Below, piece after piece: positions 44,794 through 48,391 of a DNA stretch of 64,000 nt (position 1 is the first letter of the stretch; each line of letters opens with the position of its first letter). Position numbers and translations under genes: made by a program. The notes under the pieces were generated by a model that searched no databases, was not told the origin of the DNA, and worked only from the letters and a program-made list of their open reading frames with translations. Source of the stretch: Intestinimonas butyriciproducens (GTDB taxonomy: Bacteria > Bacillota > Clostridia > Oscillospirales > Butyricicoccaceae); NCBI RefSeq assembly GCF_016901775.1, contig NZ_JACJKW010000003.1:1-64000 (forward strand), given 5' to 3'.

Positions 44794-44827
44794 TGAAAAA
44801 AGAAAAGCGCCCGGAAAAGGGCGCTTT
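44794..44827 (-). terminator. Terminator of the XRE gene
   Basis: AAAGCGCCC pairs with GGGCGCTTT around a short loop, followed on the minus strand by TTCTTTTTTC. It overlaps the last base of the stop codon. Confidence 0.88.
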
Positions 44828-45183
44828 CAGCTTCTTGTTTTCTTTTTGGTGCCTTGGTCGGCCAGGGCCAGGATCTCCAGCTGTTTCAGAAGAAGTTCCT
44901 GGACCTTGTCCAGATATTGGGGAGGGATATGGGAAAGCTGCTCCGAAAGCTCCACTTTTTCTGTTTTTTCCTCCCAAAGCAGCCGGTCGGCGGAAATCCC
45001 CAGCACTTCGCAGATTCGCTTCAAAGTGGAAAGAGAAACCCCCACACTGCCTACTTCGCAATCATACAAAAACTTTGCACTGACACCCAGCAGCTCAGCA
45101 AATTTTTCGCGAGTATATCCATAGTGTTCTCGGTATGTGCGTATATTTTTGCCCACCGTGATGTTGATATCCTTTTTCACCAA
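44827..45183 (-). CDS. XRE-family regulator (118 aa)
   Basis: A helix-turn-helix regulator: VGKNIRTYREHYGYTREKFAELLGVSAKFLYDCEVGSVG in outline gives a complete Cro/C1 domain in residues 10-65. A C-terminal helical region (LSHIPPQYLDKVQELLLKQLEIL) may dimerise. It is divergent from the SLOG gene, and a 27-bp palindrome lies in the 94-bp space between them, so it probably controls both. DNA here is AT-richer than in the flanking operons. Confidence 0.88.
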   Translation of the reverse strand: MVKKDINITVGKNIRTYREHYGYTREKFAELLGVSAKFLYDCEVGSVGVSLSTLKRICEVLGISADRLLWEEKTEKVELSEQLSHIPPQYLDKVQELLLKQLEILALADQGTKKKTRS

Positions 45184-45277: not shown

Positions 45278-45753
45278 ATGGCATTGCCGGACAAGATGGC
45301 CTGCTTTACAGGGCACAGAGAATTGAAAGAAAGCCCAGAACTCCTATTCCATAAAGTGTTGGAAAAAACCGAACAGCTGATCCGGCAAGGGTATGTTTAT
45401 TTTGCCGCAGGAGGCGCCCGGGGCTTTGACGCCATTGCGGCCCAGGCCGTGTTGAAGCTGGAAGAAAAATATCCGCACATCCGCCTGATCCTGGTTCTGC
45501 CTTTTCCCAGACCCTATGTGCGGGAGGGAGGATGGACCCAGGAGGACATCCGGCGGCACGAAGAGCAGAAAAAAAGAGCCTCCCAGGTAATCTATACCCG
45601 AAAGGCTTATGGTGTGGGCTGCTATTATCAAAGAAATCGTTACTTGGTGGATTTTTCTTCCGTCTGTCTGTGCTATCAATACAAAAACACCGGTGGGACG
45701 GCTTATACGGTAAGCTATGCCAGGGAAAAGGACGGAAGATCATTCCCATCTGA
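45278..45753 (+). CDS. SLOG-superfamily (DUF1273-like) protein with a C-terminal frameshift
   Basis: A Rossmann-like nucleotide- or ligand-binding protein related to YpsA/DUF1273 and DprA. Seen motifs are MACFTGHRELKESP, YFAAGGARGFDAIAAQAVL, LILVLPFPRPY and the end VCLCYQYKNTGGTAYTVSYA. After AREK (45730) the frame breaks. One extra G at about 45731 would give GRKIIPI and a stop at 45751-45753, the expected end. As written, the frame runs on to 45994 through DNA antisense to the recombinase remnant. Either a real -1 frameshift altering the last residues or a sequencing error. The ATG is preceded by AGAGGTG. Confidence 0.75.
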
Positions 45754-45763
45754 ACAGAAAGCC

Positions 45764-46105
45764 TCAGGCCCTCACCAAAAGAGCCACCGTCTCGAGCGTT
45801 GTCCCAGATTCCAAGGGCAACTCTTTCACTTCCTGCCCATTCACAGGGACCGGGAAATTGAACACAATCTTCTTTATCCAGCTACCGTCTTTTCTCTTTT
45901 CCGGGAACATCTCAATTCGCTCGATAAAGGCTTTCATAAACTCTTTCTGTTCCGCTTCTGTTGCGGAATGGTAGACTTCATCAAATGCCAGTAAGAACCG
46001 ATAAATGTTATCACCGGATATTTTCTCCTGCTGGATACTGCGTATCTGACTTTGCAATTCGCCAATAATAATATCCAAAAAGCACAAAACCGCTGCAACT
46101 TCCAT
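45764..46105 (-). pseudogene. C-terminal fragment of a large serine recombinase
   Basis: Only the last ~110 residues of a transposon-type serine recombinase remain. A coiled-coil end (LQSQIRSIQQEK) is followed by the conserved tail (DNIYRFLLAFDEVYHSATEAE, KEFMKAFIERIEMFPEK, KKIVFNFPVPVNGQEV). The catalytic domain is absent and the frame opens in a short unrelated string, so it is not functional. The last residues ETVALLVRA look like the end of an RlmD protein; see the mobile-element entry. It ends 10 bp from the SLOG gene, tail to tail. Confidence 0.85.
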
Positions 46106-46137
46106 CCTGCATGGGGATGAAAATTACAGCGGTTTTT
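46086..46137 (-). terminator. Terminator of the GNAT gene
   Basis: AAAACCGCTG pairs perfectly with CAGCGGTTTT across a loop that holds a second stem (CATCC/GGGATG). On the minus strand the hairpin ends in TTTTG. It overlaps the start of the recombinase fragment. Confidence 0.7.
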
Positions 46138-46147
46138 ATTGAAATGA

Positions 46148-46549
46148 TCACACTTTCATAAATCCACAGCAACCGATTTCGGACATTTCTTTGAAACCCA
46201 TAGATTTGTAAAATGCAATGGTTTTTTCTGTATTGTCCGTTGCCAACTCGATCTGTCGCACATAGTGGTACCTATCCAAAATGGCTTGCAGAAGTGCGGT
46301 GCCGATACCTTTTCGCTGATGCTCCGGGTACACCAAAATATCTTGAACAAACACAATGGTATGCCCATCGCCCACGGTGCGAATGATTCCAAGAAGTTGA
46401 TCATTCTTGTAAGCTGCAAGGGTCAGCATAGAATTTTCAACCCCCTGCCGCAATACCTCTGGGTGGTCAGTATAGGCCGTCCAGCCTACACTTGCATACA
46501 GTCGTAGGATCTCCGGCTCGTTATATGTTTTGTATTCTCTAATTTCCAT
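46148..46549 (-). CDS. GNAT N-acetyltransferase (133 aa)
   Basis: A small complete acetyltransferase: MEIREYKTYNEPEILRLYASVGW, a central AAYKNDQLLGIIRTVGDG strand pair, the acetyl-CoA loop EHQRKGIGTALL and the C-terminal ATDNTEKTIAFYKSMGF. It resembles the common 130-140-residue GNATs that acetylate small amines. It lies inside the element remnant and overlaps the upstream GNAT fragment by 11 nt. It probably arrived with the element; the AT-rich codon use agrees. Confidence 0.87.
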   Translation of the reverse strand: MEIREYKTYNEPEILRLYASVGWTAYTDHPEVLRQGVENSMLTLAAYKNDQLLGIIRTVGDGHTIVFVQDILVYPEHQRKGIGTALLQAILDRYHYVRQIELATDNTEKTIAFYKSMGFKEMSEIGCCGFMKV

Positions 46550-46754
46550 GTAAGTAACCTCTGTTTATAATTTCTCCTTCAATCGTTCCAATGCAAAAAT
46601 TCTCTGGTTGGGCATCGGGAGTAACCAATTCTTCCTTTGTCAGCCATTCATCGAGCCATACACGGTATCCTTGTTCCCGTCCCCAAGCTGCGACCTCACG
46701 CATGACAGAAATTGCTGTATCTATTTCATCAAAATGAATCTCTAATTTGCCCAT
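46539..46754 (-). pseudogene. N-terminal fragment of another GNAT protein
   Basis: About 70 residues that read like the first third of a GNAT protein (ISVMREVAAWGREQGYRVW, EWLTKEEL, AQPENFCIGTIEGE) before the frame runs out at INRGYLHGN. The acetyl-CoA binding part is missing. The ATG at 46754 is the likely start; two codons upstream are alternatives. It is either a deletion relic fused to the next gene's upstream region or a small coupled protein. I favour a relic. Confidence 0.6.
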
Positions 46755-46765
46755 CACACTCACCA

Positions 46766-48391
46766 TCAAATCAACCTAAAATATTCAAATGCTTCTCGGA
46801 TTGCTTTCTCTTTTTCCGGCGGACACTGGGGTTGTCTGGAATCTTCGGATTTCGGCAGATTGTAATTCTTGCCAACTTCTATCCCACATTTCCCTTTAAT
46901 CTGTGAGATATAGAGGTTGGACACCTTCAATCCGGTATGCTCCAAAACATACTCCTTAATCTGCGGATAGGTTGCCCCATCCTGAAATTCGGACATATCC
47001 ATATCTTCCAAAGAGAACTCAACCCGAATCTTTTTCGACTCGACCTCTCCCTTGGAAAGCAAGACTACCGTCTCCACATTGGCGGTGCGGGGGAACAGAT
47101 CAAAAGCCCGGACCTTTTCCAGGCGGTAGCCCCCGTCTGTCAGCTGGCGGATATCCCGGGCCATGGTGGCCGGGTCGCAGGAAACATAGACCACCCGGCG
47201 GGGATGCATGCGCAGCAGAATCTCCCGGGCCTTTTCGTCTAGGCCCTTCCGGGGAGGGTCCACCACCATCACTGTGGGACGGAATCCCTCTTCCAGAAGC
47301 TGCTGGGCCGCCTGTCCTGCATCGGCACACAGAAAGCGGGTGTTGGTAATGCCGTTTTGCCGGGCGTTTTCCCGGGCATCCTCCACAGCCTGGGGCACGA
47401 TCTCCACCCCCACCGCTTCCCGGCAGTGCCGGGCCATCACCAGGGTAATGGTGCCCGTACCGCAATACAGATCCAGCAGAGTATCCTCAGGGGAAAAGGC
47501 GGCATATTCCACCGCCTGCTCATAGAGCCGCTGGGCCTGGGGCTGGTTGACCTGGTAAAAAGACAGAGGGGAAAGGGAAAACTCCACACCGCACAGGCTG
47601 TCTTTCAGCCGCCCTTCGCCCCAAAGGGTGCGGCATTCCTCCCCCAGCACCCGGTTGGTCTGACGGGTGTTTTTGTTCAGCACGATGCCCACCAGAGCGG
47701 GGCAGCTTTCCCGGCAAAGGGCGACGAGCTTTTCCGGCTGGGGCACCTTCCAGGAGGTGACCACCAATGTGAGCAAAGCGCCCTGCTTTCCGGTGCGCAC
47801 ATAGATATGGCGCAGAAGGCCCCGGCCGGTTTCTTCCTCGTAGATGGAAGCGCCGCAGCGTTCCGCCCACCGGAGCACCCCCTCTTTCAGCTGATCGGCC
47901 AGGGGGGATTGGATGGCACAGTTTTTCTGAGGGATCACCTGATGGCTGCGCCGCCGGTAAAAGCCGGCCGCCGGTCTCCCCTCTTCTATGGCGCAGGGGT
48001 ACATGGCCTTGTTCCGGTAATGGAAGTTTTCGCCCCCCACGATTTCCAGCTCCGGAACACTCTGGCCACCCAGCCGCTCTAAGGCATCCTGCACCCGCTG
48101 GCGCTTGGCGAACAGCTCTTCTTCGTATTGCATGTGCCAGAAGTCGCAGCCGCCGCACTTGGGAAAGGCAGGACAATCTGGCTCCTGCCGGTGGGGAGAA
48201 GGCTCCAGCAGTTCTTCGATACGGGCGTAGGCTTTGTTTTTCAGGGCCTTGACGATGCGCAGACGGCACCGGTCTCCCCGCACGCCCCGTTCCACAAACA
48301 CCACCTGGCCGTCCAGGCGGCATACTCCCATACCGCCGCTTTCATAGCCGGTGATGATTCCTTCGTGTATGCTGTTTTTTTCCAAACTCAT
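46766..48391 (-). CDS. rlmD: 23S rRNA uracil-5-methyltransferase with element-derived C-terminal extension
   Basis: A SAM-dependent m5U methyltransferase of the RumA/RlmD/RlmCD family. The TRAM domain fills residues 1-60. The iron-sulfur cysteines are C73, C79 and C82 in CPAFPKCGGC plus one in PQKNCAIQ. SAM binding is at LLDLYCGTGTITL, then DPPRKGLD and the catalytic cysteine in VSCDPATMARD. The usual protein ends near VETVVLLS (about residue 445). Here ~95 residues are added, including EYVLEHTGLKVSNLYISQIK and SEDSRQPQCPPEKEKAI, in AT-rich DNA. It overlaps the upstream lipoprotein gene as ATGA. Confidence 0.93.
   Translation of the reverse strand: MSLEKNSIHEGIITGYESGGMGVCRLDGQVVFVERGVRGDRCRLRIVKALKNKAYARIEELLEPSPHRQEPDCPAFPKCGGCDFWHMQYEEELFAKRQRVQDALERLGGQSVPELEIVGGENFHYRNKAMYPCAIEEGRPAAGFYRRRSHQVIPQKNCAIQSPLADQLKEGVLRWAERCGASIYEEETGRGLLRHIYVRTGKQGALLTLVVTSWKVPQPEKLVALCRESCPALVGIVLNKNTRQTNRVLGEECRTLWGEGRLKDSLCGVEFSLSPLSFYQVNQPQAQRLYEQAVEYAAFSPEDTLLDLYCGTGTITLVMARHCREAVGVEIVPQAVEDARENARQNGITNTRFLCADAGQAAQQLLEEGFRPTVMVVDPPRKGLDEKAREILLRMHPRRVVYVSCDPATMARDIRQLTDGGYRLEKVRAFDLFPRTANVETVVLLSKGEVESKKIRVEFSLEDMDMSEFQDGATYPQIKEYVLEHTGLKVSNLYISQIKGKCGIEVGKNYNLPKSEDSRQPQCPPEKEKAIREAFEYFRLI

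Follow-up and report, generated by a model that had tools for sequence, protein, structure and literature searches.

A hybrid rlmD gene in Intestinimonas butyriciproducens as the probable legacy of a decayed serine-recombinase element

How does a housekeeping methyltransferase come to share the peptide at its end with a broken recombinase? The question is raised by a 64,000-nucleotide stretch of Intestinimonas butyriciproducens DNA (assembly GCF_016901775.1, contig NZ_JACJKW010000003.1, positions 1 to 64,000; hereafter the window), in which rlmD, the gene for a 23S rRNA uracil-C5 methyltransferase, runs on past its expected end, and a fragment of a large serine recombinase gene, reading in the same direction, stops shortly after the same motif. 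An original prediction, made from the sequence alone, proposed that an element had inserted into the end of rlmD, that the two genes had exchanged their tails, and that the element had since been largely lost. The evidence gathered here argues strongly for such a history: a serine-recombinase element very probably swapped tails with rlmD in frame and then decayed by internal deletion. Genomes and loci used for comparison carry G and L numbers, respectively; the most instructive is G273, Agathobaculum butyriciproducens DSM 100391.

Two junctions, two exchanged ends

The features on which the argument turns are the following.

48391-46766, minus strand: whole rlmD gene, a hybrid with the tail (host-derived as far as the general-base Glu of VETV, tail thereafter)
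47069..48391, minus strand: host part of rlmD, extending approximately to VET of VETV and including the general-base Glu codon (TIGR00479, identity to other bodies, GC 0.62)
47067..47074, minus strand: attL-type core GAGACGGT, rlmD/tail junction (exact 8-mer in 62 of 83 distinct rlmD+tail sites)
46766..47068, minus strand: C-terminal extension of RlmD, in all likelihood element-supplied, 96 residues after VETVVLL, plus stop (identity discord, GC 0.43, same domain on serine recombinases)
45788..46066, minus strand: 3′ remnant (stub) of a large serine recombinase gene, ~93 codons (87% DNA identity to the G273 recombinase; phrog_95 integrase, 1.1e-5)
45786..45793, minus strand: attR-type core GAGACGGT, junction of recombinase and old RlmD tail (similarity to the G273 and G026 recombinases starts at 45786 and 45789)
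45764..45787, minus strand: VALLVRA-stop, probably the former 3′ end of rlmD and at present that of the stub (translation; likeness to the short RlmD ends of relatives)

The layout is as the original prediction described it. Both genes lie on the minus strand, and each carries the 8-mer ACCGTCTC at equivalent codons (47067-47074 and 45786-45793), coding E-T-V of an ETV-x-LL peptide. Beyond the first copy rlmD continues in AT-rich DNA, at GC 0.43 against 0.62 in the body; beyond the second, VALLVRA-stop alone remains. One att site is thus situated inside rlmD and the other, in the same orientation and 1,281 bp away, inside the serine recombinase gene of the element. A direct repeat of 8 bp falls inside the 2-21 bp span of the serine-integrase elements that target rumA/rlmD. 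Shuffling predicts 0.71 occurrences of the 8-mer in the window, where four are present; taken by itself the repeat is thus weak evidence, and it is its setting that convinces. Because both sites sit at the same E-T-V codons, an exchange of tails keeps the frame. Both window junctions are in frame, as are the other occupied sites compared, although those were located by peptide patterns, which out-of-frame sites outside the window would escape.

The enzyme itself is readily recognized, with 398 bits against an equivalog cut-off of 183.55 for TIGR00479. The Glu of its VETV aligns with that of Streptococcus pneumoniae RlmCD (SP_1029), for which the general base is given as E443 (PMC5614603, PMC6235398). 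The catalytic Glu codon is accordingly where the core begins, and since this codon stays on the host side, the hybrid methyltransferase probably retains activity.

Orthologues without the extension stop a few residues past VETV, and short ends in the genus Agathobaculum resemble VALLVRA, the outcome that the original prediction had anticipated. Among 60 genomes (own included), 11 have an rlmD match that includes the extension and reaches the end of the 541-residue query; three further matches (G001, G028, G019) end inside the extension at contig ends. Eleven other translated rlmD loci stop within ~30 residues after VE, one of which, L023, was later placed in another element. In the genus of G273, which belongs to the same family as the window, rlmD was matched in 23 of 25 genomes. 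Short RlmD ends at nine of its loci include VETAALLVR, VETVALLCR, VETVALLCT, VETVCLLQR and VETAALLVRKDR; L231, one of the nine, belongs to another element, and five loci (L238, L239, L240, L242, L243) gave no row under the peptide pattern used. The exact core is found at 9 of 17 retained short-ended rlmD sites, a set that takes in L237 and L244-type ends and was reduced from 23 by removing four contig-cut tails (L002, L012, L026, L229) and the two ends of the other element (L023, L231).

On the recombinase side, DNA similarity is bounded by the core. The G273 recombinase matches the stub from 45786 (87% over 281 bp) and that of G026 from 45789 (88% over 278 bp), and no recombinase similarity reaches past 46066. 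In more distant copies (L082, L081/L105, L084/L108) it overruns the core by 6-17 bp, and in L083/L099, L211 and L212 it begins inside the stub, in the last two because the compared stretch ends there. With ~93 codons left, the recombinase is incomplete and has lost its catalytic domain. In the own genome neither stub nor tail has a second copy at E <= 1e-3. Nine other large serine recombinases there exceed the PF07508 cut-off, none with the C-terminal region of the stub; they weaken the claim from "cannot excise" to "own recombinase dead", as they could in principle excise the block in trans. Recombinases resembling the stub in their C-terminal region were seen in 19 of 87 genomes from the family, the own stub counted. 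Four large serine recombinase matches lie within ~5 kb of one contig of the own genome (G000:C9:62082-67258). Recombinase triplets are known from some integrative and conjugative elements (ICEs), and this group is perhaps a cluster resembling them.

Intact elements and a tail with two kinds of partner

Complete elements spanning both sites, for which the original prediction suggested a search, do exist. In G273 (L098, on the same contig as L160) the cores are 14,670 bp apart and enclose an intact 14.7-kb element. rlmD with its tail stands at one end and the recombinase at the other; a DUF6061 gene, genes assigned by eye to an ABC transporter and a two-component system, a DUF5906 gene and a Mob_Pre gene are also present. 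The recombinase has 563 codons with Resolvase, Recombinase and Zn-ribbon domains, and ends VETVCLLSKKP. In G022 the stub is matched by an open frame of 578 codons, whose end lies 16,149 bp from the rlmD core.

The reciprocal form is found as well. Eight recombinase ends are joined in frame to a tail: L031 (G005), L085 (G217), L122, L188, L189, L194, L206 and L210. The fusions of L188, L189, L210 and G217 are of similar length (open frames of 659-667), that of L206 carries another tail subtype, and that of L194 lies in a 131-codon piece. Pfam domains show the G005 fusion to be a complete recombinase and L122 to be without the resolvase domain. A further fusion, in G001 (L037), is broken by a stop. 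Judged from their sequences, these genes have the form expected of attP in a free element, or of tandem elements. Seven recombinase ends, that of the window included, are instead short (eight initially, L037 being set aside for its broken tail), and all are in frame; G016 adds one.

Several of these loci show further particulars. In Butyricicoccus pullicaecorum (G005; L031 3114-19885), rlmD with one tail type is followed by a 15 kb element, a recombinase fused to a different tail type, and then DUF6061. A DUF6061-type gene stands directly after the tail in several elements (L098 16777-17022; L031 2841-3089; L150 10358-10606), behind rlmD tails and recombinase fusions alike, and is missing in the window. 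G005 also has a short ETV peptide, SLAEYRTLETVCLLVRG-stop, with no clear recombinase reading upstream.

The tail itself is widespread. A 110-residue query matches 73 of 345 sampled genomes of the order (E <= 1e-3), about a dozen of them weakly and over the front part of the query only, mostly its first 31-56 residues, several at contig ends. The best 80 of 357 relative-encoding stretches in named genomes comprise 68 tails on rlmD, 4 on recombinase and 8 on short or cut open reading frames (ORFs). At all 68 rlmD loci the tail is nearer to that of the window (median 90.6%, 71.9-95.7) than the body is (median 41.8%, 29.1-50.8), and 55 of the 68 bodies align over >380 residues. GC follows the same division, at 0.449 ± 0.016 in the tails and 0.554 ± 0.090 in the bodies. 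Selection of the loci by tail similarity inflates the tail identities, but neither the divergence of the bodies nor their scattered GC is affected. Similarity of the tail to many loci ends at the core, or anywhere from a few to a few dozen bases past it, where conserved rlmD codons follow. A relative 48% identical to the tail sits in frame on an RlmD-type gene in a Streptococcus suis phage record. The rlmD of G006 (L011 1480-3150) has a diverged tail, ~45% identical and with GC 0.56, perhaps an old, host-adapted copy.

Tails evolve under strong purifying selection, the median ratio of non-synonymous to synonymous substitution rates (dN/dS) being 0.051 over 1,504 pairs with dS >0.15; comparison of the window with 62 others gives 0.076. 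The window tail has two synonymous and four non-synonymous private codon changes, where the means in the 62 others are 4.7 and 2.0. These numbers hint at relaxed selection on the window copy, although the changes are too few for a claim. The tail has no Pfam match (E <= 0.1) and no PDB sequence match, no tail family is named among the best 25 of 41 entries for RlmD in NCBIfam, and the single weak PHROG match is to phrog_27283, of unknown function (E 6e-4). An AlphaFold2 model from 48 sequences (mean predicted local distance difference test score 76.8) shows three helices, with the first ~30 residues low. Foldseek found no match for the model in PDB or BFVD at E <= 0.001, and re-alignment of 46 chains to it with VIA-align 2 gave a best Z of 2.4; the absence of a clear match to a predicted model does not establish a new fold.

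The remnant and the histories that could have left it

What lies between the cores, and directly beside them, is listed below.

46539..46769, minus strand: 76-codon ORF, probable cargo, perhaps truncated (relatives' open frames 190-197 aa)
46148..46549, minus strand: complete GNAT acetyltransferase gene, probable cargo (PF13508, 2.6e-15)
46073..46140, minus strand: terminator-like hairpin, then T-rich DNA (recurs in related elements)
46064..46073, no strand: putative deletion joint, hairpin abutting recombinase 3′ end (recombinase similarity ends at or before 46066, hairpin similarity starts at 46064-46086; compare the intact G273 element)
45278..45753, plus strand: flanking SLOG (YspA-like) gene (PF06908, 1.4e-11; probable 1-nt frameshift near its end)

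The 76-codon ORF has no Pfam or NCBIfam match at the limits used. Its relatives, in 4 of 340 genomes including the own (E <= 1e-8), lie in longer frames, for which reason it is perhaps truncated. Counting the own genome, relatives of the GNAT gene are present in 12 of the 340 (E <= 1e-25). The hairpin folds stably (46070-46141; minimum free energy -32.8 kcal/mol, z -6.4), and similar sequence is found in 12 other compared loci, 1.7-5.5 kb past the tail, sitting between convergent genes in three of the four gene-listed ones (L150, L172, L188). No relaxase was found among the scanned ORFs between the window cores, while G273 has Mob_Pre. The mobilization genes and the recombinase catalytic domain are gone, and to the original prediction it can be added that the stretch between the cores is not empty, the ORF, the GNAT gene and the hairpin having been kept.

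The history that best accommodates these observations would have begun with an element of the ICE type, or of the integrative and mobilizable (IME) type, whose attP, located within the 3′-terminal part of its recombinase gene, recombined with an attB in the 3′ end of rlmD. RlmD would thereby have gained the 96-residue domain of the element, and the recombinase the last few residues of RlmD. A later internal deletion would have brought the cargo terminator up against the recombinase 3′ end, leaving an immobile block, and the hybrid RlmD would have outlived the element. With the element's own recombinase dead, the hybrid is probably fixed. The exchange of tails is supported by the intact relatives, by the limits of homology and by both fusion forms. 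It is not the case that all relatives carry the extension in GC-rich DNA with no recombinase nearby, nor that native RlmD ends are unlike the end of the recombinase fragment.

Several observations weigh against this history, or at least against its neatest version. The first concerns the point of crossover. At 58 rlmD sites of one tail type, host-like variation occurs at core +2 in 11 and at +5 in 7, at +6 to +14 in 0-5, and at +15 to +25 in none. These attL rows point to a crossover between +5 and +6, but the attR rows do not all agree, reading GAGACGGC in G016 and G004, GAAACCGC in G373, GAGACGAT in G022 and GAGACTAT in G026. Taken together, these rows place the crossover within or adjoining the core, without fixing it to particular bases. 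Second, several of the seven short recombinase ends are contig-edge pieces or short remnants (L082, L084, L094). Third, some short ends are not native: VETIVLLQRE(T/N)L, seen at L023, L231 and the G026 recombinase, was assigned to another element because the DNA behind it is conserved across genera. Fourth, the same genus offers no empty site; in G001, its only other genome compared, rlmD is cut by a contig end inside another tail type.

The third of these points feeds the rival that survives best, although it is unlikely, namely that the short end in the window is the tail of a decayed second element, in tandem at the same site, and not the host RlmD end. Tandem use of the site is real in G005, where a fused recombinase lies 15 kb on from an rlmD with one tail type, and another element family does supply a short end common to several genera. 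Against it, the DNA from the core to the SLOG gene matches no compared locus beyond 17 bp. VALLVRA, moreover, resembles several short RlmD ends, and the SLOG gene starts 10 bp past its stop, though SLOG genes are not regular rlmD neighbours. That no shared flank was seen behind the short end among the compared loci still leaves a second-element origin some small probability. The other element at this rlmD site gives its short IVLLQRE-T/N-L end, with conserved DNA behind, in three genera (L023, L231, L080/L104), and such an end can mimic a native RlmD end.

Distinctly less probable is a second rival, in which a related recombinase acting in trans moves the 1.3-kb block unchanged, as a small cassette, rather than the block being a decayed large element. 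Both cores are intact and cargo is retained, and potential helpers are at hand in the recombinases of the family with a similar C-terminal region and the nine others of the own genome. Against it, stub and tail are single-copy in the own genome, no second such block was seen among the compared loci, and deletion leaves just such a broken recombinase end. That the extension is an old, vertically inherited lineage domain, the stub unrelated and the 8-bp match due to chance, can be dismissed almost entirely: the 8-mer does occur twice more in the window and the tail is under strong purifying selection, but tail and body disagree in identity at all 68 loci, tail GC is near uniform whatever that of the host, tails of the same family are fused to recombinases, and intact elements span both sites.

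The flanking SLOG gene merits a few observations of its own. Its frame overruns a likely ancestral stop at 45751-45753 and runs antisense through attR and the stub to 45994, apparently through loss of one base in an A-run near 45720, where a sequencing error is possible; the alternative frame ends GRKIIPI-stop at 45753, like the GLKVINIK-stop of relatives. A helix-turn-helix gene (44827-45183, minus strand) is divergent from it, and the pair is kept in G010 (64% and 57% identity). G227, where rlmD shares a contig with the best SLOG relative, was rejected as an empty-site marker because many genes lie between the two, so that it is not the junction of the window. At E <= 1e-8, a SLOG match is absent from G001.

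Precedents and meaning

The mechanism as such is already known, both the exchange and the hybrid having been published (PMC4701971, PMC4320837). Streptococcal ICEs with a single serine integrase insert into rumA with reciprocal exchange of 3′ parts (Ambroset et al. 2016, PMC4701971; for IMEs, PMC5357655). Direct repeats of 2-21 bp are reported there, one in rumA and one in the integrase gene, the excised integrase having another C-terminus and both C-termini gaining new lengths (PMC4701971). The window is alike in the location of att sites in both genes, the reciprocal exchange and the changed C-termini. It differs in that both junctions are in frame, whereas the streptococcal exchange is described as altering the reading frame (PMC4701971), in the supply of a single conserved domain as the tail, and in being a dead remnant in a Clostridia-type genome. 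In a second precedent, insertion of CTn5 fuses rumA to the element ORF CD1844A, giving a hybrid protein, and CD1844A resembles the end of the RumA homologue of another species (Van Eijk et al. 2015, PMC4320837); CTn5 is described as complete and seen at two places, unlike the window remnant, which lacks its recombinase. Phage Mx8 of Myxococcus xanthus has attP inside its integrase gene, such that integration replaces the integrase C-terminus as in the window element, but it uses a tyrosine integrase and another target (PMC4701971). The window contributes a decayed copy that has left a hybrid RlmD in place, together with evidence that the supplied tail is a conserved domain, without a Pfam name, found in many Clostridia hosts.

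A bearing on function comes from S. pneumoniae RlmCD, which, like the window RlmD, is an RlmD-type enzyme with a ~90-residue extension, here after residue 454 of 543 (PMC6235398 for the length). In its PDB chain the stretch leading to residue 453 of 454 is HVETVALLSKLDV, with SKLDV near the end, and the tail start SKLDVDHHINIEI in the phi-SgaBSJ27_rum stretch likewise has SKLDV; by this likeness the residues of SP_1029 past 454 would be the same tail. In the sections available of the RlmCD papers (PMC5614603, PMC6235398), the extension is not tied to a mobile element. A construct of residues 1-454 is reported to be ~25% more active in vitro than the full-length protein (PMC5614603), and by analogy a tail of this sort may not be neutral for the enzyme.

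Together, these findings bring to light a domain common to an integrase and a housekeeping enzyme, allotted to one or the other by the state of integration. One might go further and propose, tentatively and with considerable doubt, that the domain has two employers: in the free element it would complete the recombinase, perhaps being needed for attP x attB integration, and after that event it would tune rRNA methylation by RlmD, while the short-ended recombinase would favour staying; the window RlmD would then have kept the domain for good. That the core begins at the general-base Glu codon, which a host can hardly change, may explain the broad host range. More generally, the C-terminal extensions of RlmD found in many Clostridia come from mobile elements and can outlast them, and in RlmD/RumA annotation, phylogenetic trees and structure work the last ~95 residues are to be treated as foreign.

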